This document shows, piece by piece, positions 21,536-44,285 of a stretch of 64,000 bases of DNA (position 1 is the first letter of the stretch; every line of letters starts with the position of its first letter). This stretch comes from Serendipita indica DSM 11827 (lineage: Eukaryota > Basidiomycota > Agaricomycetes > Sebacinales > Serendipitaceae), in NCBI GenBank assembly GCA_910890315.1, contig CAJVGD010000002.1:1178001-1242000 (forward strand), given 5' to 3'. The notes beneath the pieces are model-generated. The model was not told where the DNA came from. It was given only the letters and a program-made list of their open reading frames with translations, and searched no databases. Both the position numbers and the translations under genes were made by a program.

Positions 21536-22004
21536 ATTGTCATAATGGACTTGATGTATCATAGCACTCGTTGTCATTTCTAGCATTTTTTTGAACACCT
21601 TTTTTACCTGTTGAGAAGGGTGGCGGATCCAACCTGAGTGACGGAAAATGAGATTGGCTGGATAAGGTAATGTTGAGGGGGTGGCGCATCTGAAGCCGCA
21701 CGGATCTTTGGGGGGTTCAAGACCCTGAGAGAAAATGAACGGCGGCTATGGCCGGCCGTCTCACATGTCAGCACCTCGAGTCTTGTACTTGGGTGTATAA
21801 TAATCCCGCAGTAGGAGCGAATTGTTCATCCGCTTGAGATGAAAAGCGGCGGCTAATCGCTGGTATTAGACTGAAACGGTTACGTTCAAAAAGGGCGGGC
21901 TAGACTTGCCAGCAACAGAGTAATCGGCGGAGACCAGGGGTGAGAACTCAGGAAAGACAGGTGCCTTGATGGCCTTCGTTTGGTCGGGTCGGGTATACGG
22001 GTAC

Positions 22005-22010
22005 TATAAA
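22005..22010 (+). promoter_or_regulatory. TATA box, peptide gene 1
   Basis: TATAAA follows the shared CCTTGATGG box and precedes a 5'-UTR intron at 22099-22160 (GTATGT...TATATAG). Confidence 0.7.
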
Positions 22011-22237
22011 ACGCGGATATTTGCCCTGGGCCCTTTACATCTCCCAGAAATCTCTCCTTCCTTCGTGCGCTCCCAACCATCGCGAGCGATCCTCCGTTGT
22101 ATGTGGCATTGAGGCTTCTCGTGCTTCTAGTCTAATTGCTGATCGTCTTTCTTTATATAGGGTTTACATCTTCATCATCGTTGCCATTGTCAACAACAAA
22201 AGCACAACACTTACCAAATCCTAACCGCCAACTTACC

Positions 22238-22396
22238 ATGCGCTTCTTCGCAATCATCCTTACCCTCGCTGCTGCCGCTATTGCAGCTCCCGTCCCAGTC
22301 GCTGAGCCGCAAGTACCCGACGCGACCACGACTGCCGACGGTGGTGTATCCGCTAATGGAGCCTGCAGCAACGCCTGGGCATGCGTTACCTGGTAA
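22238..22396 (+). CDS. Small secreted peptide precursor 1 (Cys/Trp core)
   Basis: 52 codons. The N-terminus MRFFAIILTLAAAAIAA is a clear signal peptide, followed by PVPVAEPQ (alternating X-Pro/X-Ala dipeptides), a Thr/Asp/Gly spacer, and the C-terminal core CSNAWACVTW. The two Cys could close a small disulfide loop around a Trp, and the chain ends in Trp. There is no CAAX box and no Kex2 KR site. The upstream region has a TATA box and a 62-nt 5'-UTR intron shared with the four paralogs. I know of no described family with this pattern. It could be a secreted signal, an antimicrobial peptide or a RiPP-like precursor. Confidence 0.8.
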   Translation: MRFFAIILTLAAAAIAAPVPVAEPQVPDATTTADGGVSANGACSNAWACVTW

Positions 22397-22796
22397 ACTG
22401 CCCATCTGGGCCTCGTCTGTGAACGATTGGCCCATCTTCTCGGACTCCTTGCCACGTTGATGCCACTGCGTCTATGTGAAAGTGGCCTAATATATCCTTA
22501 TCGTAATCCAAATCCACTCGTTTTATCCTCTGTTTCACTGTTGAAATGTACTTTTTTCTTCTGTTGGCCGCTTGAGCCCCCTTGTGTGTCGACAGGCAAC
22601 AGTCGTTGCCAGCTACGGCTCTGCCTCTCAACCTGGAGCGGATACTCTAAGTGTACCTTTCCCTTTGATAATACTCGGATATAGTCCCAGCTTTGTTGAT
22701 TCCCGTCACCGGAGAGTTGCGTTTATGGGTGGGAATTCAAATGGGAGAGGTGGTGCCTTGATGGCTCCCGTCTGCTTGGGTCGGGGTGATGCGGAC

Positions 22797-22802
22797 TATA
22801 AA
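22797..22802 (+). promoter_or_regulatory. TATA box, peptide gene 2
   Basis: GCGGACTATAAAG context, shared with units 3 and 4. The 5'-UTR intron is 22881-22940. Confidence 0.7.
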
Positions 22803-23018
22803 GTCTGGGAAGTCCTTTGGATCTTGGTCCCTCTTTTCCTTCTCCTTTCGCTCCCCACCCATCGCGAGCTATCCTCCGCTGTATGTGCCTTTGAGGCTTC
22901 TCGCGCTTCTCATCTCATTGCTCATCATCTCCCTGCCCAGGTCTTGAATCTTCATCGTCGTCAGCGACAAAGCCTACCGACCTACAAAAGCTCCCCGAAA
23001 CCTAACCGCCGATTCACC

Positions 23019-23177
23019 ATGCGTTTCTTCGCCGTCGTCCTCGCTCTCGCTGCTGCCGCTATTGCAGCTCCCGTCCCCGTCGCTGAGCCGCAAGTACCCG
23101 ACGCGACCACGACCCCCGACGGTGGTGTATCTGCAAATGCTTACTGCGCCAACCCCTGGACATGCGGCAGCTGGTAA
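23019..23177 (+). CDS. Small secreted peptide precursor 2
   Basis: 52 codons. Signal peptide MRFFAVVLALAAAAIAA, then PVPVAEPQVPDATTT, a spacer, and the core CANPWTCGSW. Against gene 1 the first 40 codons differ at 11 (7 silent, 4 replacing). The last 12 differ at 7, all replacing, while both Cys, the Asn and both Trp keep the same codons. The following ~88 nt of 3' UTR differ at only about six positions. This pattern, with fixed leader and UTR and a variable core, is typical of secreted precursor families under selection for core variety. Confidence 0.8.
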   Translation: MRFFAVVLALAAAAIAAPVPVAEPQVPDATTTPDGGVSANAYCANPWTCGSW

Positions 23178-23339
23178 ACTGCATATCCGGGCATCGTCTG
23201 TGAACGATTGGCCCATCTTCTCGGACTCCTTGCCACGTTGATGTCACTGCGTCTATGCGAAAAGTCATCTAATATACCAGTCATCTAATCCTAGTCCACT
23301 CCTTTATTCTCTGTTTCTTTACTGTTGAAATGTAGTCAT

Positions 23340-23850
23340 CTGTTTGACCTGCCTCGTGTATCGATAGCCGCGACACGATATGACTACCATCGTTAACAGA
23401 CGCTCTATGCCAGCACGCTGCTAAAGCCCGACTTGGATTGGACACTTTTGTATACTACGACCGGATCGTTCCTTTAAGCATAGAGACGGAAGCTGGTTGA
23501 TCCGGTCCCGACTTCGGATAAGGTCGCGTCCATTATTGGGTAAGAATACGAATGACCGGGGGTGGGAGAGGCCCCGAAAGCGGAACATATCCAAGTTGTA
23601 ATCCAAACTTGGTGTTCTAGCTTCTGTTTTCGTTGTTAGATTGACATCCTTGCGTTGGCTGTTTGAGCTGCTGCCTCTTGTGTCGATAGGTGGCTGCGAT
23701 CCTCCTTGGATGCCAGCAGGTACCTAAACACGACCTGGACTGTATACTATGAGCGTCTTTAAGAACCCTGTTGATCGCCAACGCTGGAAGGTCGAACCCA
23801 GGGTGTCAAAGGATCCCGAGTGAGAGGCGGGATGTCTTGATAAGTTGCTC
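23340..23850. repeat. Decayed intergenic module(s) of the peptide array
   Basis: Two rough repeats of the inter-gene segment occur here (TGCCAGCACGCTGCTAAAG and TGCCAGCAGGTACCTAAA with similar flanks). No precursor ORF lies between them, suggesting a lost unit. Confidence 0.5.
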
Positions 23851-23874
23851 CTGGTCGGTATGAGTAATGCGGAC

Positions 23875-23880
23875 TATAAA
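23875..23880 (+). promoter_or_regulatory. TATA box, peptide gene 3
   Basis: ATGCGGACTATAAAGCC. The 5'-UTR intron is 23945-23998 (GTACGT...CTCTAG). Confidence 0.7.
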
Positions 23881-24072
23881 GCCAGAGTATCGGTCTGAGT
23901 CTCTCTCAGCATCCTCTCTTACCCACCGTGAGCCATCTTCTCTTGTACGTGCCCTGGAGATTCTTCGTTCCTCTCTCATCATCCATCTTCGTCTCTAGGT
24001 TAAGATCTTGCGAATTATCTAAAGTGACAAAGCGTACAAACCTCAAGGCTTACGAAAAAACCAAACACCAAC

Positions 24073-24228
24073 ATGCGCTGCTTCGCCATCGTCCTTGTTC
24101 TCGCCGCTGCCGCTATTGCAGCGCCCGTACCCGTCGCTGAGCCTCAATCTCCTCCTGCGGGGACGACGACCTCCAGCGCGGGTGGATTCACAGGGTGCGA
24201 CCTCCCTTGGATGTGCTACAATTGGTAA
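24073..24228 (+). CDS. Small secreted peptide precursor 3
   Basis: 51 codons. Signal peptide MRCFAIVLVLAAAAIAA and the same PVPVAEPQ. The spacer is more diverged (SPPAGTTTSSAGG) and the core is CDLPWMCYNW. The Cys-x3-Trp-x-Cys-x2-Trp spacing is kept although most other core residues changed. An extra Cys sits in the signal peptide (MRC). Its 3' UTR is less like those of units 1 and 2, so it is an older branch. Confidence 0.75.
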   Translation: MRCFAIVLVLAAAAIAAPVPVAEPQSPPAGTTTSSAGGFTGCDLPWMCYNW

Positions 24229-25411
24229 ACTGTTCATCTCGGAACGTCGGCTACACACGTTTTCTCAGACTCGTCGCTTGTTTGATATCACTGCACCCAT
24301 GCGAAGAGTCATGTTACCGAATACGACGTAGCCATCTGATTTCAATTGTCCATCGTTGTCCCATGAAATGTGATACCTCTTGTCTGAGATGTTTCTTGAT
24401 TCGATGGCTGCAATAAATCTCTTTAAAAGACGCATCTGCCAATGTCTGTAGCTCCCAATTCCTTGCAAGAGTGTACCATAGCCACGCCTTATCCTTCGGA
24501 TAATGCATGGATATAGTGAGCTGCTTGTCGATTACAAATACTGGAGCATTATCCGAGAGAGAGAGTAAGAGCGAACGGATTGATACATCGGCCTGCGGTC
24601 CAAGTGTGACAGAAGCGGAATGCGCACGACCCAGAGAAACACGACACGCCCTTCTGCTGCCTTTGCACTACAGTAAGTTTTATCACTGAACAAGATTACC
24701 AAATATTGTCCATATTGATCAAGTTGCCGCGCCTTCCAGAGATTGCATTGCGAGTTATGGCCATTCCAATACAGTTCGGACATCTGAACAATGTTCATGA
24801 TAATATTCTCTTTCCATAAAACTCTCCAGACATGCTACAGCGAAACGACGATGATCGGGAGTTGTCCTTGCCTTCTGGACAACTTGTCTGCTAGGCATCT
24901 GTATAGGGTTGCAGTAAACCTGATCATGACGCCTCGAATTTTGTAGTCTAGTCGAGTCGTTCAATCTGAATATGCGAATGAGATCGAGACGATCAGCGGT
25001 ACTCCGAAAGGAAGTTATTAAATGTCTATAAATATTGAATTAGCGTAATGACTATTTTCATATTTGATTTGGAGATCCAACTAGACTACAGAGCCGAGGC
25101 GTGTCCCGTCGGATCCCGACGCTTGGTCTCTCCGCTCCGCATGCAGCGGGCGCATCGGTCCTACACCTTCTGTGAATCAATTTTGATGTATCTCTTGACA
25201 GTACAACAATAAAATGGGTCCAAAGCTGGATTTGCCTTCGTTCTTCCAGATGCCCGCCACCTCTGACGGTAACTTGTTCGCCATTTATGTTGAATAACAT
25301 CCCGCTAGCAATCAAATTAAAAAGGGCTGCCCAGACTGCCAGGGCAGAGCCGGCGGAGACTAAGACGAGGTGCCTTGATGGCTCCGTCTTGTCAGGTCGG
25401 GTGATGTGGGC
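24229..25411. other. Long inter-gene gap of the peptide array
   Basis: Contains one module fragment near 24480-24540 (TGGATATAGTGAGCTGCTTG) and otherwise unrelated sequence. No gene is supported. Confidence 0.45.
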
Positions 25412-25417
25412 TATAAA
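25412..25417 (+). promoter_or_regulatory. TATA box, peptide gene 4
   Basis: GGGCTATAAAATC after the TGCCTTGATGGCTCCG box. The 5'-UTR intron is 25504-25559 (GTATGT...ATCTAG). Confidence 0.7.
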
Positions 25418-25616
25418 ATCAGGGCCTGGTTTTGGACCTTTGGGTCTCTCAATCCTCTCCGTTCCTTCTTGCTCTCCCCCATCACCGCGAGCTATCCTCC
25501 GCTGTATGTGCCCTCGAAACTTCTCGCGCCTCTCGTCTCATTGCTCATCGTCTATCTAGGGTTAAAATCTTCATCCCCGCCGACACAGCCTCTCAAATCT
25601 GAACCGTCAATTCACC

Positions 25617-25772
25617 ATGCGCTTCTTCGCCGTCGTTCTCGCCCTTGCTGCTGCCGCTATCGCAGCCCCCGTGCCCGTCGCCGAACCTCAAGTACCCGAA
25701 GCGACCACGACCGCCACTGGAGGTGCAACTGCAAATGGATGCTCCAACCCTTGGACATGCGGCAGTTGGTAA
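25617..25772 (+). CDS. Small secreted peptide precursor 4
   Basis: 51 codons. Signal peptide MRFFAVVLALAAAAIAA, then PVPVAEPQVPEATTTATGG and the core CSNPWTCGSW, the consensus form of the family. Leader and promoter are closest to gene 2. The 3' UTR keeps the same TCGTCTGTGAA block. Confidence 0.8.
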   Translation: MRFFAVVLALAAAAIAAPVPVAEPQVPEATTTATGGATANGCSNPWTCGSW

Positions 25773-27087
25773 ACTGTTTATCTAGGCATCGTCTGTGAAT
25801 GATTGCCCTTGTCCCCTTGCATGGACTTCTTGCCCCGTTGACTCCATTGCGGCTATGCAAAAATACATCTAATATATGTCTTCTAATTGCAATTCACTCG
25901 TTTTTTACTGTTGAAATGTACTTGTTTCCGTATCGACTGTTTGAGCTGTCTCGAATTGGTAGCAACTACATAAACTCGTTTCAAGCGTTTACGAGACGCA
26001 TCTGTCAATGCCAGCATGCCCCTAACGCCCAAGTCGGGGCGTCTATCAGCAAAAGCTCGTATGTGGACGCTACTAGTCGCGACTTGCTCATATGAGGGCT
26101 CATATACTCGGGCTTTCAACGACCTACTTGATGCATGATTGTCGTCTCTCCATGGATTCCTCTCAGCCCACGCCGCGAGCCCCAGGGCCTCCGACCCAGG
26201 CCGCCAACCACTGGCCATAACGAGCTCTTAGATAATTTCTAAACGAAGTAGCAGGCCTATTTCGCGTTGATCACTCGCTAATATGATATTCTGAACCCCT
26301 CGTCTCGTTACCAGTCAAATCTCGAGAAGTTTGATACCAGTACATCAAACGATTGTATTTTATACTAATAAAATCCAGGAAATCTGCCTGTGTTCTCGCT
26401 TGCAATGGGCAAAAGGATATGCATACGCTTGCTTGACGATTGAGCTCTTGGGTAGGAACTAAAGATATAATGAATATGCTGCATTCAGGTTACTATTCAC
26501 CCGTTCAGGGAAGCACAGAAGAGCAAGGACCCGCCCGACTGCTCGCTCAGCAGTGCAAATGCTCGTCCATCCTAGCCTATACCACGATCCAATCAATGCC
26601 GTGTATATTCAAGCATATTCCGCATCATAATTGCCGTCGTTGCTTCTCATGTTATTCAAAAAAGGACCAATGAATCCGCTGATGGTCACAACGGATACAG
26701 CGCGTCGAAACTTCTCTGATTAACCCATTCCTACCTGACAGGTAGGGTCGGGCCTCTCACGAAAGGTGTAGATTGGCTGTTTTTATCTTGGCTGTTTGAG
26801 TTAACTCATTAATTTACTCCGCAACATGAATCAACTGCGATCATCACTAGACGCAACTGTCAATGCCAGGACGCCCCTCTGGCTGGCTGGCCTTGGGGTG
26901 TATCCCCTATTGTATTATCGCCACCCCTTTATAATGTCCGGATATAGTAAGATGCTTGTTGATCCCGAACGTCGGAGGATTGTACCCAGGGGTGGGAGAA
27001 TATAAACGGAACCGAGGGAGGATTGATTGATGGGCGGATGAGCTAGGGCCATCACACACAAGCCAAGACAGGTAAAACCCGTGGCAT
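25773..27087. other. Gap with decayed array modules
   Basis: Segments near 25910-26040 and 26760-27000 repeat intergenic modules seen elsewhere in the array (TGTTTGAG, TGTCAATGCCAG, GGATATAGTAAGATGCTTG). No intact precursor frame was found between genes 4 and 5. Confidence 0.5.
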
Positions 27088-27093
27088 CTATAA
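27088..27093 (+). promoter_or_regulatory. TATA box, peptide gene 5
   Basis: GGCATCTATAAAAGTGG. The 5'-UTR intron is 27155-27213 (GTATGT...CTCTAG). Confidence 0.65.
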
Positions 27094-27239
27094 AAGTGGT
27101 CGGCCTGTGGATAACCTGTCCTTCAGCAACCGCTGTCGCTCTTTTCGCCTGAAAGTATGTTGGCTAGCCCGTCGACGCCCTAGCAGTAAACTCGCTTACT
27201 GAGATCACTCTAGACAAACACTACAATATAAATCAAATC

Positions 27240-27413
27240 ATGCGTACCGTCGCTATTCTTCTCACCCTCGCCGCCGCTGCGATAGCTGCGCCCATCCCAC
27301 AAGAGACCACCAGTGATGTGTCTGCCCCTGCAGCAACCACGACGGCTGCACCAGGTGGTACTGGAGCAAACGATGTTTGCCGTATCATCCCGTGGCTCTG
27401 CGGTAGCTGGTAG
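27240..27413 (+). CDS. Small secreted peptide precursor 5 (divergent member)
   Basis: 57 codons. Signal peptide MRTVAILLTLAAAAIAA, then PIPQETTSDVSAPAATTT and the core CRIIPWLCGSW, one residue longer in the Cys loop. The leader still shares LTLAAAAIAAP with gene 1. The upstream box is degenerate, but the TATA box and 5'-UTR intron are retained, so it is the most distant surviving duplicate. Confidence 0.75.
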   Translation: MRTVAILLTLAAAAIAAPIPQETTSDVSAPAATTTAAPGGTGANDVCRIIPWLCGSW

Positions 27414-27732
27414 ACGTCTCTGCCTATGCGCTGCCTTACAATACTCGGACTCTCCTACTCCATTACACTCGTTTATACATATACTTTTCACTCTAAAAGC
27501 TTGTGTGAATTTTCAGCGCTCACATAAGCGAGCCCTTTTTGGACGCTCGTGTGAATTTTCTCGCTAGTCCGAGACTCAACTGTCTGTCTGTGTCAGCCCC
27601 CGAGTTCCGGCAGTGGCTGGTCTGTCATCTGTTGGAGCCGAAGCCGGCAACCCATCCGGGCGCAGCGGATCGCTCTGAGTTTTATAAGCGTAGCCACCCG
27701 ATGATTCACAGTAACGGTTTGGTCGGACCATC

Positions 27733-29842
27733 ATGTCTTCTCGTCCGTCTACAGAGCTACACGTAGACCATTCGACGCTCGTCAATAATTCCCCGCACGG
27801 TGGACCGTCCAGAGTCGACAGTCTAGACCTCGAAGCGCATATCCCAAAGCTCATGGACAGCATAAAAACAAAAGGTGGCATAGAGACAGTGCAAGATGCA
27901 GACGTAGATCAAGAAAGCCGTCAGCTCGAACGTCGTACGAGCGCCGTCAATGATGCATGGCCCTCTGCCGAACTCGCAGAGGATCCAGCGCTTGCGATGG
28001 AAGCAAAGAACGAGAAGTCGGATTTATTCCTCGTTACATTCGACGAAGGCGACCCGCTTAATCCAAAGGTGAGCCCCACGGATATCCCTCCTATTAGCCT
28101 ACCAATGCTGACAAAACATCTCAGAACTGGTCAAGATGGTTCCGATGGTACCTAACCTTTGCCTCTTCTCTCCTGGTCCTCAACGCCTCTTTTGCATCGT
28201 CGGCACCTTCAGGCCTCATCCGCACCCTCATGTCCGAGTTTCACATGTCACAAATCGAAGGGACGCTCACTGTCTCCCTCTTTATTGGTACGTCATGTCT
28301 CTCTCGTAGTTGGTCCGAACTGACGCGACCTTTTGGAACGATTAGCCGGCTACTGCGTCGGTCCGTTTGTTTGGGCGCCGACCAGTGAGAGCATTGGTCG
28401 TCGACCCATGTTCATCGTCGGCTTTTTTGGCTACTTTATCTTCCAAATTGCCTGCGCACTCGCCCCGAACACGGCCGCCCTCCTCGTGTTTCGATTCCTG
28501 TCTGGCTGCTTTGCGGCCTGTCCATTGACCAACTCGGGTGCAGTCTTAGGTGACATGTGAGCTATTTTCCTTGTGCGTCATTGGCCAGAGCTGATAGTGA
28601 CTTAGATGGGATAATGAAACTCGAGGTTCCGCCACAGCCATCTTTACCCTGTCTCCTTTCGCTGGACCCGCCATTGGTCCTATCGTTGGAGGCTATATTG
28701 AGCTCTCAGGCATCAAGTGGCAGTGGCTTTTCTGGATCCTCACCATCTTTGTACGTCCCCGAGCCACCGGCCCTTCGAATTGTGTCACTGACCAATGGTT
28801 TGTAGTCTGGTGTATGCTGGCTCATGATCCTCTTCACCATTCCTGAGACCTACGGACCTGTCATTCTCGTCAAAAAGGCCAAGGCCCTCCGCAAGTCCTC
28901 TGGCGATTCACGGTACAAGGCTGCACTTGAGCTTCAAGAGGTCAGTATGGGGAAGAAACTCGGACGCATTCTCGGTCGTCCCTGGAAGATCTTCTTCTTT
29001 GAGCCGTAAGTCCTCTCTCATCACCACGTACATGAACTAATACAATAGTCTAGAATGTTGGTCATTATCACCCTTTATATGAGTGTGAATGCCAATATAG
29101 GATTGAAAAAAAGTCCCCACCTAATCGTCTGCTAGTTTGTCTACGGCCTGCTCTATCTGTTGTTCTTGGCCTACCCAGTCGTCTTCATCCAGGGCCACCA
29201 CCTCAACGCGGGCGAATCTGGCTTGACATTCTTGCCCATCTTCCTTGGTGGTGTAATTGGAGTGATTCTTGTACGTCTTTCTTTTTGATCCGCCATCCAG
29301 GGAAGCCAACATTTATTCGCAGTACCTTTACATCTACGCGCCCATGTACACCCGTGTCTCTCAAGCAAACGGTGGCAAAGCTTCTCCAGAAACTCGACTT
29401 CCCATGGCCAAAATCGGCGGTCCAATTCTGACCATTTCCATGCTCTGGTTCGGCTGGACGAGCTATCCGCACATTTCTCTGTGGGCGCCCGTTCTTGCAG
29501 GTTTAGGAGTTGGATTATCTATTGTGCTCCTATTCTTGTCATTGTTCAACTATATCATCGACGCCTATCTCCCCGTAGCAGCCAGTGCGCTTGCGGCGTC
29601 GACAGTCGTCCGAAGTGCATTTGGGGCAGCATTCCCAGTACGTATAGTTCCCTAATATGGATCTAAGACATGACTGATCGCATCTCTAGTTGTTTGGAAA
29701 CCAGATGTACGTCCGTTTGGACCCACGGATTGCGTCGACCGTCTTGGCGGCCATCACACTCCTCATGGTCCCCGTACCGTTTGTGTTCGAAAAGCTTGGG
29801 CCGAGGATACGCAAGAGTAGCAGATATGGTCTTTCCGACTAG
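27733..29842 (+). CDS. MFS transporter, DHA1 (drug/polyamine:H+ antiporter) type
   Basis: A 12-TM plasma-membrane exporter by family. The start at 27733 opens a ~110-residue polar cytosolic N-terminus ending DEGDPLNPK, then an intron, then NWSRWFRWYLTF, the usual entry to TM1. Family marks are VWAPTSESIGRRPMF (loop 2-3), RFLSGCFAACPLTNSGAVLGDMW (TM4-5) and SPFAGPAIGPIVGGYI (the TM5 antiporter motif). An IPETYGPVIL loop follows, and the chain ends PRIRKSSRYGLSD (stop 29840-29842). About ten exons with 45-60 nt introns. Substrate unknown; TPO-like polyamine exporters and azole/toxin pumps share this pattern. Confidence 0.88.
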
Positions 29843-36718: not shown

Positions 36719-39700
36719 ATGGCGGACGCTGCGAGGTCGGCGCTGGCCCGGGACCACCTCAACGATCCAAACTACGACGTCGAGGACGCGCTGAGACGGA
36801 GTTCGAGTGAACGGACGAGCTCAGCATCTCCAGTTCCCTCCACACATCCCTCTGCGTCCATCCGACGACGCGCAAATGCAGCACCCCCGGCCCCGCTCTC
36901 CCCTCCAGTCCTCCCGGCCGTGTCTGGCCAGCTCTCGTCGCCGGGAATGTTTCCGCTAATTTCCTCGAAACAACAGCTCCACCAGTTTCCTCCCCAGCAG
37001 TCTTATCAGCCCACAGCCATTCCTCCGAATAACCGTCAGTCCTACTCTTCTCCCATCCCAAGCAGCAGCCAGGCCCGCACAAGCTCCCACGACATTCCTG
37101 TAATCCCACGAATCAATGTACAACAAGACCAGGACTATGACCAGGAGGAATACGACCTCGAATCTATAGCCCCGTCCTCTTCTTCCAGGCGTATCTCGCG
37201 TGACTCGTATGGATATGAGAAAAAGGGCAATATGCGTTCATACGACGAGGCAGAAACAGACACGCGATCAGAGCTCGAGTTTGAAGAGTCAGTCTGCCTT
37301 GTCCGGTTGCTCCTACTTACTGACATTCCATAGCGACATTGAAGACGACTCGCCTTATCCAGAGGTACGGGCCGCCGTCGCAAACACAGACGACGTCTCC
37401 ATGCCCGCCAATACTTTTCGAATGTACGGCCCCCACATCTCCCCAGCCGAGTCCCTCGACTAACCGTGGTACAGGTGGCTCCTCGGCATGCTCTTCACTG
37501 TCCTAATAGCGGGGCTCAACCAGTTCTTTTCCATGCGATATCCAAGCATACAAATAACAGCACTCGTCGCCCAGCTCGTCGCCCTCCCGGCAGGCAAGAT
37601 TTGCGAACGCATCTTCACCGCCCGCTATTTCACCATCACACTCCCCACATGGCCCTCCAAATCTGGAGCAAGCTGGACTCGAAAATATCGGTTCACCCTC
37701 AATCCTGGCCCCTTTAACATTAAGGAACACTGCCTGATCACCGTCATGGCAAATGTGGTAGCTGGTGGTGCTTACGCGACGGATATTATTGCCGCACAAC
37801 GCATCTTTTACAACCAGCGATGGTCCGCTACATACCAGCTGACACTTGTCATCTCCACCCAAATGATTGGCTTTTCCTTGGCAGGCGTCTGTCGCCGGTT
37901 TCTCGTCTGGCCGAGCTCAATGATTTGGCCCGCAACGCTTGTCAATGCTGCGCTCTTCAACACGCTCCATTCCACCTATGGCCGCTCCGAACAAGGCCAC
38001 ATCTCCCGCGAGCGCTTCTTCTTCCTCGCCTTTATCGGCAGCTTTCTATGGTATTTTGTACCCGGATACCTCTTTACGGCTCTCAGCATGTTCAATTGGG
38101 TATGCTGGATTTGGCCTCGCAGCGGCGTCGTCAACAATCTGTTCGGGTACAACCACGGTCTTGGCATGGGCTTTGTCACCTTTGACTGGTCCATGATTTC
38201 GTATACGGGGAGTCCCCTCGTTACTCCTGTGAGTTCTTATCGCCCGTCTTGCACTCACAGCTGACCTGTCGACAGTGGTGGGCAGAAGCAAACGTCTTTG
38301 CCTCCCTCATCGTCATTTATTGGATAATTGCACCTATTCTGTATTGTGAGTCTTTTCGCTATCGACAAGTCTTAGTACTCAATCATGCGTCCAGACAAGA
38401 ATGTATTCTTCTCTCGCTACATGCCCATCTCCGCCCCCTGGTCCTTTGATAATACCGGCGCCGTGTACAACTCGACGAGGGTCATCATCGACGGCGAATT
38501 CAGCCCCGAGGCTTGTGCGTCTGACCGCTTTGGGTACGATGCCGAACTAACATTTCTCTAGTCCGTGAATACTCTCCGCTCTACATCTCGTAAGTGAGAT
38601 TCACGTCTTGCACATGGATGCTCATCCCATTTTCCAGAACGGTCTTTGCACTCTCATATGGCCTCTCCTTTGCCGCCTTGACCGCCATTACGGTGCATAC
38701 TGTTTGTGAGTACAAGCCACTCTCGCTCGGGAGGAAAAGGAAATTGACCGCCTATCCAGTGTGGTATCGACATGATATCATGCGACAGTTCCGCAGTAGT
38801 TTGCGCGACGAGACGGATGTACATGCACGGCTGATGCAAGCGTACCCAGAGGTTCCCCAGCTCTGGTACTTTTCCATGGGCCTGGTTGCATTCGTGCTGG
38901 GTATTATCACCATCGAGGTCTGGGATACAAAGGTATTATCCGTCCAGCAACCGTCTTCCAAGCTCACAATCTCCAGCTCCCTGTTTGGGCATATCTCATC
39001 TCGCTCCTGGTGGCGATTATATATCTGGTTCCTGTTGGTATGCTGCAAGCGATCACCAACCAACAGGTTGGACTCAAGTGCGACAACCTCCATTAGCGCG
39101 CCACTCTTTTGACTGACCCGTTGTCAAGTGTCATCACGGAACTCATCGTGGGATATTTCCTCCCTGGCAAACCCGTTGCCATGATGATCTTCAAAACGTT
39201 TGGGTACATCAGTGCGTTTCATTCGCTAAGCGTGTTTCTCCGATATCTCACGCCGAGTCCAACAGCCATGGCCCAAGCATTAGCCTTTGTCTCGGACCTT
39301 AGTGAGTACGGCACTCTTTTCACGAATCTGCTCTAACAGTTTACAGAGCTCGGTCACTATATGAGTGCGTTGGCATCATAGAATACTGAAATCATATTTC
39401 TTACGACTTTTGCAGAGGTTCCGCCACGATTAATGTTCTTGGCGCAGACAATCGCTACATTCGTGGCGTGTTTCGTGGTCGTCGGCGTGCAAGCCTGGAT
39501 GTTTGGCAATATCCCAGACCTTTGTGCCCGACAGCATCCAGGTAAATAGCACCTTCAGTAGTCTCGTCAGTTTGCTTACTATCCCCCTCATAGATCACTT
39601 TACATGTCCGCAAGCTCGCGTGTTCGGCACTGCGTCGCTGATATGGGGTGCCATTGGGCCTCAACGCCTCTTCAATCCTGGCCAAATCTACTATCCACTT

Positions 39701-40328
39701 TTGTGCGTTTTTGGACCTGGGGCAGGATGGTATACTCATTCCCATCTCTAGATACTTCTTCCTCATCGGTGCACTTCTTCCTATCCCATTCTACCTTGCC
39801 TCGAGGAAGTGGCCACAATCGGTAGGAGAGCAATCCCAATTCGTTGGCAGGATCTGATCAATCACCCTCAGTGGTTCAAATACGTCAATCTCCCCGTCTT
39901 TATGAACGGAACATCACTTATGCCACCGGCCACTGGAATTAACTTTTCTTCATGGGCTATGACCGGTTTCGTATTTCAGTACTGGATCCGACGGAGACAC
40001 TTCAAGGTACTTCACCTCTCTGGTTGACCCCCTTTTTTCATACTGAGCGCGTTTAGTGGTGGAGTCGGTACAACTACATCCTCTCAGCCGCACTGGACTC
40101 TGGCGTTGCCGTTGGCTCCATCGTCATCTTCTTTTGCCTCCAATACCCGAACAATGGCGGGTTTGAACTCGCTTGGTGGGGTAATAGGGTCAATATGAAC
40201 ACGTTGGATTACAACGCGGCTGCCGCTCTCCCACCAGACTCTACCAAGGGGACCTTTGGCCTGCTCTCTGTGCGTACGCAGTTGTGCTATGGATACACAT
40301 GAGACTAACTCGCTCTTAGTGGTATTGA
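36719..40328 (+). CDS. Oligopeptide transporter, OPT family
   Basis: A proton-coupled importer of tetra/pentapeptides, glutathione or metal-peptide complexes at the plasma membrane. Exon 1 (MADAARSALARDHLNDPNYD) encodes a ~200-residue disordered Ser/Pro/Gln cytosolic tail. The membrane part begins WLLGMLFTVLIAGLNQFFSM and contains the OPT landmarks NPGPFNIKEHCLITVMAN (the NPG-F-KEH signature), TTQMIGF-like STQMIGFSLAG, YMPISAPWSFDN, FGTASLIWGAIGPQRLF and PPATGINFSSWAM. The end is KGTFGLLS plus a short last exon W-Y-stop (40320-40328). About a dozen introns. The long N-terminal tail is unusual for the family. Confidence 0.88.
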
Positions 40329-40769: not shown

Positions 40770-42290
40770 ATGCGACGCGCTTTTATTCTCGCCCTCTTCT
40801 TCACCTGTGTGCAGGCACATCTCACTGCTTGGACGAAAGGCATGTACTGCCTGAACGTACGTTGATTCTTCCCTCGCATGGTTTGGTGCTGAGGTGCCGT
40901 CTGACCTCCAGGGCACAAGTGGCTTCAACAACGAGAACAACGACGACCCAGTCTCTCCCTTGTTCCAACTTCCAAAGGCACAGTGGTGGAGTGAGTGGTA
41001 CCCCGCGTCTCATGATATCTACTTACCGTGGACCAGTGCATCATGTGAACAGAGTACGCTCCTGTCCTCGCGCTTCGATCGGTGTTGACAGCTAGAAGTG
41101 TGATCAGTTCCCGCCTGAACCAGGAAACTTTCTCGAAATGTGCGTACTAAGATGAGTGACAGATACTCGTCGCTCACGGCACGCGCAGTCCGGCCAATGG
41201 TCGCTTCGCAGTAGAAGTGGCGAGCAACAGAGCATTCACGTCCTTTTCATATGGTGGGCGATATGTCTCCGAATGGGGCGATGGTGCCGATCACCCCGAC
41301 GATTACTCCATCTTGAATCTCGGGGGTCAACCTAACCCTGGCAAGTCTAATTGCATCCCAAGTCCAAATCGTAGGTGAGATTTCTATCATAAGCGGTACC
41401 TAACCTGGACCCAGTCCATGCCAAAAGCGAGGCCACAGCCGCGGGAACTGCATTTGCCATTTCTTACCACGTGCGCTCTTTTTCAGCTGGACAGGGGCAA
41501 ATGCTGATCTTGGTTTAGAGCAAGCTTTCCGATGTCACCCTGGAAAACTTGGTCGTGTTCACCGTCAAGTACCAGTAAGCGGTTTTCGCGTTTCAACACA
41601 CCCTCTCAAACGATCGTAGTACGCCATTCAAGCGAGTCGTCACCTACGATGCTCCAAATCTTCCACGTTGTCCTCCGGGAGGCTGTATTTGTGTCTGGGG
41701 GTATGTCTGCTCGAAGCTACCGTCTCTCGACCTGGACTAAAGCCCAATTTGCTTAGCTGGATCCCAAACCATTGCGGGCAATCAAATATTTACATGATGC
41801 CTCATCGATGCATCGTTACGGGCAAGACTGGCTCCGTGCCGCTTGATCGGCCCAAGCCACCTGTCTGGTGTGAGGGCAACCCCGCTGCATGCGTCAAAGG
41901 TCCAAAGCAGTTCATTGCCTGGAATCAACTCGAAGGCAATAACGTTATTGCCGAGGGCTATCAAAAAGATGGAGACTTGAAAAGTCCCGGCTATAATCAG
42001 AAGATGGGCTTCGAGAATGGTAGCTGAAGTCTTTCAATATTGATTCAACTGACTCACCTTCTAACGTAGGTGCTCAGACCGACATCTTCAAGTCCGGCAA
42101 CTATATAGTCACTACCAAACCTGTGTCGTTCACGCCGTCAGCGTCCACACGCAAGCCGACTATGACCATCACCGCATCAGTCTCCGACGCTAGCGCTATC
42201 AGAGAGTGTCTAGATGCAAGGGCCTTGGAATACATTCATCGCCGCAACTCTCGCCGTAAGGCTCACCGCCGGCTCGATTCCATCCACTGA
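40770..42290 (+). CDS. AA14-like lytic polysaccharide monooxygenase, copy A
   Basis: A secreted copper enzyme thought to oxidise polysaccharide chains (AA14 acts on xylan-coated cellulose). Signal peptide MRRAFILALFFTCVQA is followed directly by His (HLTAWTKGMYCLN), giving the N-terminal His of a copper histidine brace. Next are GTSGFNNENNDDP, PLFQLPKAQWW, MHHVNRCDQFPPEPGNFLE, FSYGGRYVSEWGDGADHPDD, CIPSPN, VVFTVKYHTPFKRVVTYDAP, CPPGGCICVWGWIPNHCGQ and CVKGPKQFIAWNQLEGNN. The C-terminus (from ~42070) has a Thr/Ser linker and a basic tail with one Cys. About eight small exons, stop 42288-42290. It is the most diverged of the three copies. AA14 is assigned by motif memory; another brace-type family is possible. 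Confidence 0.7.
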
Positions 42291-42835: not shown

Positions 42836-44285
42836 ATGCGCTCTATACTTCCACTCCTTTTCATCGCTCCTTTTGCTCGTGCGCATATCGCGGCATGGGT
42901 AAAGGGAATGTACTGTCTCAATGTCGGTCCGCTCCTCGATCGACAATCGCTGCTGACACTTCCTCGGTAGGGTACAAGCGGAACAGACAACCAGAATACA
43001 AATGATGCGGTCAATCCCCTGTACAATCTGACCAAGAGTGATTGGTGGAGTAAGTCATTCAGCGCCTACATTGGTCGTAGCTGATATGCCGTCCCAGTGC
43101 ACCACAACAATAAAGTATGGTCCTATTGGCTCCTCATATCGCTACTTGAACTTTTCAACAGTGTGACCAATTTCCTCCCGCTCCCGGCGACATCCTCGAC
43201 ATGTATGGTATCTCGCTAACGCCTTCATCCATGCTCATGTAGTCACTAGACCCAGTGGAGGAAACTTCACAGTAGAACTTGCCGAAAACCGCGCGTTTAC
43301 GACATTGAGTTACGGAGGTAGATTCGTGACTCCCTGGGGTGATGGCAAGAATCATCCCGATACATACTCTATCACGAATTTGGGTGATCAACCTAACCCC
43401 TCTAACTCTGGCTGCCTTCCGAGTCCCAACTGTATGTCACGCTCTTACCCAATTTGCTGCGCTCTTATGCTGATGGTCGATAGTGCATACCCAAAATGAG
43501 ACCATGGCGGCGGGGACAGCTTTTGCCATATCCTATCAGGTGCGCCAGGCGGTTAGGATCCCTCCCTAGTGGTAACGTCTCGACAGAGTGAGCTTGCAAA
43601 GGTCACGCTTGAGAATTTGGTCGTTTTCACCGTCTTATACCAGTGAGCACGCCTCCTCAATTGTATGATACATATACTGATGATATTAGCACGCCATTCA
43701 AGCGTCTTGCGACATATAGTGTTCCAGCAGGAATGCCTAGCTGCCCTCCCGAGGGCTGCATCTGCACCTGGCTGTGAGTAGAAGAGACAATGAAGACATT
43801 CTGTCTAATTTTTTTGGCAGTTGGGTGCCCAATCATTGCGGTCAGCCAAACATTTACATGCACCCATACCGGTGCAAGGTCTCAGGCGCGACTGGAACGA
43901 GGCAACTTGCTACTGCTCAGCCCCCTGTCTGGTGTGAAGATGACGAGACCAAGTGTGTGAAGGGCGCAAAGCAAATGATTGCCTGGAACCAGCTAGACGG
44001 AAACAATGTCGTCTTAACAGGGACCCAGAAGGATGGCGATTGGAAATCACCTGCATACAATATGAAGATGGGATTCCGCAATGGTGAGGACCGATTCGTA
44101 CTGTGAAACGTCACTCAATCCCTGCAGGCGCACAGACCGACATCTTCAAGCCAGAGACCACGACCGTCCCAACACTGACCCCGACACCGACAACGTCCAA
44201 AGCAGTGAAAACGGCACTTGGATGTGTTTCTATGACTCCAGTTACGCTGGCCAAAAAACATACCAATCGACGCCGTGGCCACTAA
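42836..44285 (+). CDS. AA14-like lytic polysaccharide monooxygenase, copy B
   Basis: Signal peptide [16 protein letters not shown], then mature [13 protein letters not shown] with the brace His first. The same blocks follow in order: [50 protein letters not shown] (candidate second copper His at about mature residue 96), [39 protein letters not shown] and [19 protein letters not shown]. The tail carries a Thr/Pro linker and [14 protein letters not shown] ending RRRGH. Intron positions match copies A and C. It is much closer to copy C than to A. Confidence 0.72.

Follow-up and report, generated by a model that had tools for sequence, protein, structure and literature searches.

Analysis of a 64,000-nt stretch of DNA (the window) from an organism that is very probably Serendipita indica revealed a family of secreted-looking precursors, encoded by five co-oriented + strand ORFs (22238-27413) and by a sixth copy dispersed from this array. 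Each precursor combines a conserved leader with a variable C-terminal core in a fixed Cys/Cys/Trp frame. We put at roughly 40% the probability that this is a Serendipita-restricted secreted prepropeptide family, whose disulfide-closed core is presented to an extracellular partner. The family itself exceeds chance, as evidenced by the five paralogues and copy 6, by protein-level constraint amid heavy silent divergence, and by the existence of a 51-aa relative elsewhere. S. indica belongs to the Sebacinales, and not to the Cantharellales as assumed in an initial annotation of the window.

Gene array, promoters and dispersed copy

ORF positions and translations show that the five tiny tandem genes listed in the initial annotation are all present as described. 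They encode products of 52 aa (gene 1, 22238..22396), 52 aa (gene 2, 23019..23177), 51 aa (gene 3, 24073..24228), 51 aa (gene 4, 25617..25772), and 57 aa (gene 5, 27240..27413), which end just before the stop codon with the cores CSNAWACVTW, CANPWTCGSW, CDLPWMCYNW, CSNPWTCGSW, and CRIIPWLCGSW, respectively. Gene 5 has a divergent pro-segment, in which most of the X-Pro/X-Ala run is missing, and six residues between the cysteines of its core. The sixth copy lies on the minus strand of the same genome (G000:C2:2299524-2299688). Similarity between the tandem units of genes 1-4 amounts to 62-75%. A + strand stretch between genes 2 and 3 (23576..23690) repeats the gene 1 3' flank but holds no gene, and is probably the relic of a lost family member; it aligns at 65.9% over 123 columns (E 2.4e-7), and the only match from four control pieces had E 0.92. 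Copies may have been multiplied, diversified, and lost in tandem.

The initial annotation had also proposed a common TATA context and a 5'-UTR intron. Indeed, a TTGAT[GA] element, a TATA box, and a 54-62-nt candidate intron (GTAYGT...YAG), all predicted from the sequence alone, are found in all six genomic copies. In the gene 1 promoter (21965..22010, + strand), the CTTGATGG element is at 21965 and the TATA box at 22004, with counterparts preceding the other copies. For gene 5, we chose the match at -152 from three TATA-like candidates. The candidate introns, all on the + strand, span 22099..22160 in gene 1 (62 nt), 22881..22940 in gene 2 (60 nt, with an 84-nt alternative), 23945..23998 in gene 3 (54 nt), 25504..25559 in gene 4 (56 nt, with an 85-nt alternative), and 27155..27213 in gene 5 (59 nt, aligning poorly with the others). 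The similar promoter architecture of the six copies could be explained by shared descent alone. A fragment of 279 bases from upstream of gene 2, used to look for other genes under the same promoter, had matches only within the array, ahead of genes 1, 2, and 4.

Conserved leader and variable core

Each precursor opens with a signal-type start and closes, at its C-terminus, with a C-x5/6-C-x2-W-stop core; a Thr/Gly spacer lies in between, preceded in genes 1-4 by an X-Pro/X-Ala run. The translations agree with the initial annotation on the signal-type start, the PVPVAEPQ segment of genes 1-4, the Thr-rich spacer, and the core ending at the stop codon. The signal peptide call is based on sequence and hydropathy (best mean Kyte-Doolittle value over 11 residues). 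The core motif originally given, C-x2/3-[AP]-W-x-C-x2-W, holds for the five array genes but is too strict for the family, because the loop Pro-Trp is dispensable. It is absent from copy 6 and from the 51-aa relative (P0002), and the family motif is therefore C-x5/6-C-x2-W.

Among the seven precursors (six genomic copies and P0002), six display an A-P-V-P-V-A-E-P run, which precedes the first Cys of the core by at least 17 residues. Lys is absent from all seven, as are dibasic KR/RR/KK (Kex2) sites, and Arg is found only at position 2, plus once near or in the core in two sequences. Beyond residue 16, there are 2-3 acidic residues, 0-1 Arg, and no Lys. Since no endoprotease site is recognisable between spacer and core in these sequences, the core may remain joined to the linker.

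In an alignment of the seven sequences, in which P0002 was placed by hand, identity is 82% in the signal, 65% in the spacer, and 22% at the seven loop positions, with Cys, Cys, and the final Trp invariant in 7/7. When pairs of the six genomic copies are pooled, pN/pS is 0.20 in the signal, 0.47 in the spacer, and 0.59 in the core (0.79 when invariant columns are removed), and silent divergence is 0.54 in all three segments. Such a pN/pS and identity profile characterises a variable core carried by a conserved delivery part. Whole-core pN/pS is <1, and six short paralogues are unable to demonstrate positive selection.

We propose that the 17 conserved N-terminal residues direct secretion and would be cleaved off. 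The A-P-V-P-V-A-E-P run would be a pro-segment, open to trimming in two-residue steps by a dipeptidyl aminopeptidase; the genome encodes a DPPIV_N-domain gene, a match that is unspecific since DPPIV_N also matches 5 of the 14 prokaryote controls. The Thr/Gly-rich spacer would act as a linker, and the C-terminal 10-13 residues, with one predicted disulfide and a free Trp end, as the working part. In such a peptide, the fixed Cys/Cys/Trp frame may display the variable loop for binding by an extracellular partner, most probably the host root or a soil competitor rather than the fungus itself.

Genome and database searches

The unspliced genomic sequence was scanned for C-x5-C-x2-W-[stop or TGG], which yielded 100 DNA matches (65 in the reversed control). 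A true stop is present in 68, of which 48 have no inner stop. Five of these 48 are family members, with a hydrophobic stretch of 2.67-3.09 after the start on the same 11-residue scale; among the other 43, a Met start lies 28-110 residues upstream in only 4, whose best hydropathy value is 1.57.

Protein searches with a six-sequence profile (1731 candidates, E up to 1), a seven-sequence profile (E up to 10, best 8000 candidates by shared words), and residues 12-51 of gene 4 (1 candidate) identified two relatives, PIIN_11593 from S. indica (P0001) and the 51-aa P0002, which has the layout and leader of the family and a different core. These were the only relatives among the candidates scored, in a search that requires shared 5-residue words and may let distant ones escape. 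No Pfam-A family was above cut-off for the five of seven sequences scanned (best 15.3 bits versus a cut-off of 27), no NCBIfam entry matched the three of seven scanned, and plasmid records gave no match. Likewise, no paper dealing with this peptide family, as judged by title or abstract start, was among the matches listed when open-access literature was searched. With a core diversified in a fixed frame and only two relatives found, these results sustain the original claim of an undescribed tandem family of secreted-looking precursors. Solved structures gave a single weak hit, a urea transporter chain (E 0.02 and 0.028), which was attributed to chance. Separately, C40:476940, with one inner stop, weakly matches gene 5 (E 0.131).

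PIIN_11593 is identical to gene 4 over residues 1-36. Its gene model apparently treats 25723..25785 (+ strand, 63 nt) as an intron, which removes the gene 4 core: without this stretch gene 4 would encode a protein of the same length, ending in ...TATGGIVCE where PIIN_11593 ends in ...TATGGIICE. That the core is an intron or otherwise untranslated, as the model implies, has nonetheless a negligible probability. There are no candidate core-removing introns (GT to YAG, 45-100 nt, first 300 bases) in genes 1 and 2, those of genes 3 (3), 5 (4), and 6 (14) are scattered and leave unrelated tails, and all seven sequences retain the Cys, Cys, and Trp that precede the stop, despite heavy silent divergence in the six copies.

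Possible roles of the peptides

It is possible, and we suggest it tentatively, that these proteins represent a novel class of secreted peptide ligand in fungi, with a one-core Kex2-free precursor, a near-constant leader, and a diversifying single-disulfide Trp-terminated loop, which would signal to roots, competitors, or kin. If so, a beneficial root endophyte that is a model of beneficial root colonisation would own a handful of different peptide signals. The six peptides are tiny, with variable loops in a constant frame, and can be made entirely by synthesis for testing. Surveys demanding Kex2 repeats miss such precursors, and in the gene model of the sole annotated member found, the core is spliced out. 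Dikaritin-type fungal RiPPs also derive from a secreted precursor with short cores; the present family differs by the absence of Kex2 sites, and UstYa (PF11807) had 0 matches in the genome, controls likewise giving none. Kex2-processed repeat proteins (KEPs), basidiomycete ones with an STE13 signature included, are defined in PMC6339444 as having three or more repeats with cleavage at KR/RR/KK. Like our family, they are secreted precursors with a dipeptide run, variable short peptides, and unknown function, but here there is one core per gene, repeats are separate genes, and dibasic sites are absent. A Kex2-processed repeat protein was therefore rejected, and the KEP pipeline used for listing fungal signalling peptides could not have found this family.

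All seven sequences end in C-x2-W, which confirms the earlier remark that they lack the C-terminal CAAX of basidiomycete lipopeptide pheromones. The likeness to ascomycete alpha-type pheromones that was also suggested extends to layout only: a signal-type start, X-Pro/X-Ala dipeptides, and a short two-Cys core with a terminal Trp. Alpha-type-like precursors are reported in Basidiomycota, and the ascomycete peptides have a C-terminal PCW motif (both from PMC6339444). That the family consists of alpha-type mating pheromone precursors is nevertheless very improbable. It has a single core ending in C-x5/6-C-x2-W rather than PCW, KR/RR/KK in 0/7 precursors, and an X-Ala/X-Pro run that, unlike in alpha-type precursors, is not directly before the peptide. 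Moreover, this is a basidiomycete with STE3 (17 exon-level profile matches, 15 over cut-off, none on the array contig). The STE2 profile PF02116 gave 0 matches, as it did in control genomes. A 39-aa ORF ending in CVVA beside an STE3 gene was dismissed as chance level (1 CAAX-ending ORF per 28 kb, versus 1.2 in control loci and 1.8 in the window). Membrane-acting antimicrobial peptides, which may also be small, secreted-looking, Cys-containing, and tandem-diversified, are improbable too; with their acidic residues and at most one Arg after the signal, these peptides are unlike the usual cationic kind, which speaks against the antimicrobial role initially considered. It is less improbable, albeit unlikely, that there is no further processing, in which case a secreted mini-protein of 35-41 residues would sit in the cell wall or matrix, its disulfide tail serving as an anchor or binding knob. 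This would fit the absence of a Kex2 or other clear endoprotease site, and a Lys-free protein with a Thr-rich linker open to O-mannosylation, but a structural tail is not expected to show 22% identity while the linker holds 65%.

Somewhat more credible, though still doubtful, is quorum-type self-signalling, in which the secreted peptides would mature extracellularly, return through an oligopeptide transporter, and act within the fungus. Mature Qsp1 from Cryptococcus neoformans is a short, Trp-ended peptide. PMC7537855 describes Qsp1/Opt1 as a secreted pro-peptide, an extracellular protease, and OPT import, which provides a basidiomycete precedent. An OPT gene (37473..40140, + strand) lies 10 kb downstream of the array on the same strand, a neighbour by position only. 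The 30 OPT matches in the genome correspond to about seven loci by our own grouping, giving a hand-estimated chance of ∼1% for one so near, noticed post hoc. However, six differing cores per genome would be odd for one common signal, and Qsp1, likened here by description and not by sequence, is one peptide as opposed to six diversified two-Cys cores. Furthermore, other ORFs separate the array from the OPT gene, including an MFS transporter gene (27733..29655, + strand; approximate limits, predicted exons) that starts 320 bases past gene 5 and has one 75-aa exon matching MFS_1. Copy 6 has no OPT nearby, the 10 ORFs there being without Pfam match and all OPT matches on contig C2 lying at 1215473-1218140, >1 Mb off.

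The proposed prepropeptide family is not the only lineage-restricted, secreted, multi-copy family in this organism. The DELD proteins of S. indica are 101-135 aa long, His/Ala-rich, and end in RSIDELD (PMC3192844). None of our sequences has an RSIDELD end, and the array products are much shorter, at 51-57 aa.

Members and layout of the family

The window, which covers bases 1178001-1242000 of contig C2 and has a G+C content of 48-54% per 4-kb step, contains five family ORFs, all on the plus strand (genes 1-5, positions 22238-27413; 52, 52, 51, 51, and 57 aa). Their products share the start MR..A..L.LAAAAIAAP and a Gly/Thr spacer containing TTT, and those of genes 1-4 also display a P-V-P-V-A-E-P-Q run. 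In genes 1-4, C-x5-C-x2-W reaches the stop codon; gene 5 has six residues between the two Cys. Whole-genome searches (24.7 Mb, 55 contigs) using gene 4, gene 5, and P0002, a 51-aa relative from ENA, returned the five tandem genes, a sixth copy encoding 54 aa with the core CTVLGLCPGW (contig C2, 2299524-2299688, minus strand, ∼1.1 Mb from the array), and one more weak match (E 0.131) with an inner stop. The family therefore has at least six members, five of which are in tandem. P0002 has the family leader and spacer and ends with CWGPTDCTGW, which keeps C-x5-C-x2-W. Because Pro-Trp is absent from the loops of both P0002 and copy 6, the family invariant consists of Cys, Cys, and the terminal Trp. 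The family described in the initial annotation is confirmed, and is extended by these two sequences; from its core motif, the two Cys and the terminal Trp stand, but not the Pro-Trp in the loop. Its reference to Cantharellales was wrong, as S. indica belongs to Sebacinales.

Genome-wide, the DNA pattern C-x5-C-x2-W-[stop or TGG] has 100 matches versus 65 in a reversed control, an excess that exceeds the family size and is partly made up of CAG-type repeats. A true stop ends 68 of the 100 matches, and 48 are without an inner stop. The family represents five of these 48 open matches (gene 5, with its x6 spacing, falls outside the pattern), with hydrophobic stretches after the start scoring 2.67-3.09. 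Among the 43 non-family matches, a Met start at a distance of 28-110 residues upstream is found for four, whose best hydrophobic value is 1.57.

Coding core, divergence, and upstream region

The best protein match is PIIN_11593 from S. indica DSM 11827, which matches gene 4 exactly over its first 36 residues and has ..TATGGIICE as its C terminus. If bases 25723-25785 of gene 4 are spliced out between GT and AG borders, 40 aa remain and the end becomes ..TATGGIVCE; the PIIN_11593 tail would require one base differing from the present genome. Considering this near-matching tail, the public model seems to treat the gene 4 core as an intron. When candidate introns were limited to GT to YAG, 45-100 nt, and the first 300 bases, there were none at the core in genes 1 and 2, and three, four, and 14 in genes 3, 5, and copy 6, respectively, which all result in unrelated tails. 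The core is therefore best read as coding. The longest contig in the PIIN_11593 record (1032 bases) suggests, although it is no proof, fragmentation of the array in the older assembly.

Across the six genomic copies, pooled pS is 0.54 in signal, spacer, and core, and pooled pN climbs from 0.11 to 0.26 and 0.32, i.e. pN/pS ratios of 0.20, 0.47, and 0.59 (0.79 for the core without invariant columns), these values being sums over non-independent pairs with few codons. The core ratio of single pairs spreads widely, from 0.11 to 3.0. For seven sequences (the six copies and P0002), identity falls from 0.82 (signal) to 0.65 (spacer) and 0.22 (seven loop positions); three of the ten core columns do not vary. 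As judged from these codon comparisons, the pN/pS profile shows constraint and relaxation of constraint rather than positive selection. Genes 1-4 have tandem units that are 62-75% alike across 419-714 columns, and the gene 5 unit is alignable across 61-177 columns only. A probable gene-less relic resembling the 3' flank of gene 1 lies between genes 2 and 3 (23576-23690), which points to gain and loss of family copies.

The TATA context and 5'-UTR intron noted initially recur in all six copies, the intron as a predicted candidate of 54-62 nt. The TATA-like box is 152-234 bases before the ATG (for gene 5, which has three matches, the one at -152 was used), and a TTGATG/TTGATA element precedes the box by 36-61 bases. 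TTGAT[GA] itself is frequent, with 95 occurrences on both strands of the window. The 8-mer CTTGATGG occurs there four times on the plus strand and never on the other, and three of the four occurrences precede genes 1, 2, and 4. Common descent of the units explains these shared elements without any function.

Comparison with known peptide classes

The absence of CAAX rules out basidiomycete lipopeptide pheromones, in agreement with the initial annotation. A 39-aa ORF with a CVVA-stop end adjoins an STE3 gene (locus L010, minus strand from base 546). Because the rate of CAAX-type ORFs at this locus is no higher than that of controls (1 in 28 kb versus 1.2 and 1.8), this ORF, which may be due to chance, was given no weight. 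Alpha-type pheromones as defined are ruled out by the lack of Lys and of a dibasic site; an uncontrolled STE2 profile had no match in the genome, and STE3 matches are present on five contigs other than that of the array. The proposed likeness to alpha-type precursors is one of layout. Kex2-processed repeat proteins (KEPs), which the KEP text of PMC6339444, a survey of 250 secretomes, defines by a minimum of three repeats bounded by dibasic sites, are ruled out by the single core and missing Kex2 site. That text reports alpha-pheromone-like KEPs in Basidiomycota and proposes non-mating signalling; as a concept, such peptides are thus already published. The present family was not found in that text, and is unmentioned in the excerpts of PMC3192844 and PMC3708536, which both deal with secreted proteins of S. 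indica. Composition argues against a cationic antimicrobial, and with it against that form of the antimicrobial reading. The claim that the family is outside described classes is supported, with no family in Pfam (five of seven sequences scanned) or NCBIfam (three of seven). Overall, the original observation is borne out and extended, and its interpretation is partly supported: the family is a lineage-restricted variant among secreted precursors of fungal peptides, has no description in the material searched, and is well suited to direct testing with synthetic peptides.

Possible processing, partner, and neighbouring genes

The sequence features are established, and we infer the processing steps from them. 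The N-terminal signal would direct secretion, AP-VP-VA-EP could be trimmed stepwise by a dipeptidyl peptidase (the genome encodes a protein with a DPPIV_N domain, which is not specific), and the two Cys would be oxidised into a ring, followed by a two-residue tail and a free Trp. The variable loop may then bind a partner outside the cell. The six different cores argue weakly for an outward partner (root or competitor); the Qsp1/Opt1 precedent, in the part of PMC7537855 that describes it, and an OPT oligopeptide transporter gene neighbouring the array argue, also weakly, for self as the partner. This OPT gene (∼37473-40140, 10 kb downstream of the array) is above the Pfam cut-off, and its first 266 residues best match an isp4-type NCBIfam model (240 bits versus a whole-protein cut-off of 438.7). 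Its proximity is a lead, not evidence.

Next after gene 5 is an MFS gene, with MFS_1 above cut-off on one 75-aa exon and a multidrug-resistance superfamily model as best NCBIfam match, under its cut-off. Downstream of the OPT gene, two neighbouring pieces of AA14 lytic polysaccharide monooxygenase (41620-42024 and 43741-44103) are probably tandem genes. Around copy 6, ten ORFs tested had no Pfam matches. The window also encodes, at 2684-4252, an NACHT/NPHP3-type NTPase; NTPases of this kind have been linked to nonself recognition in fungi.
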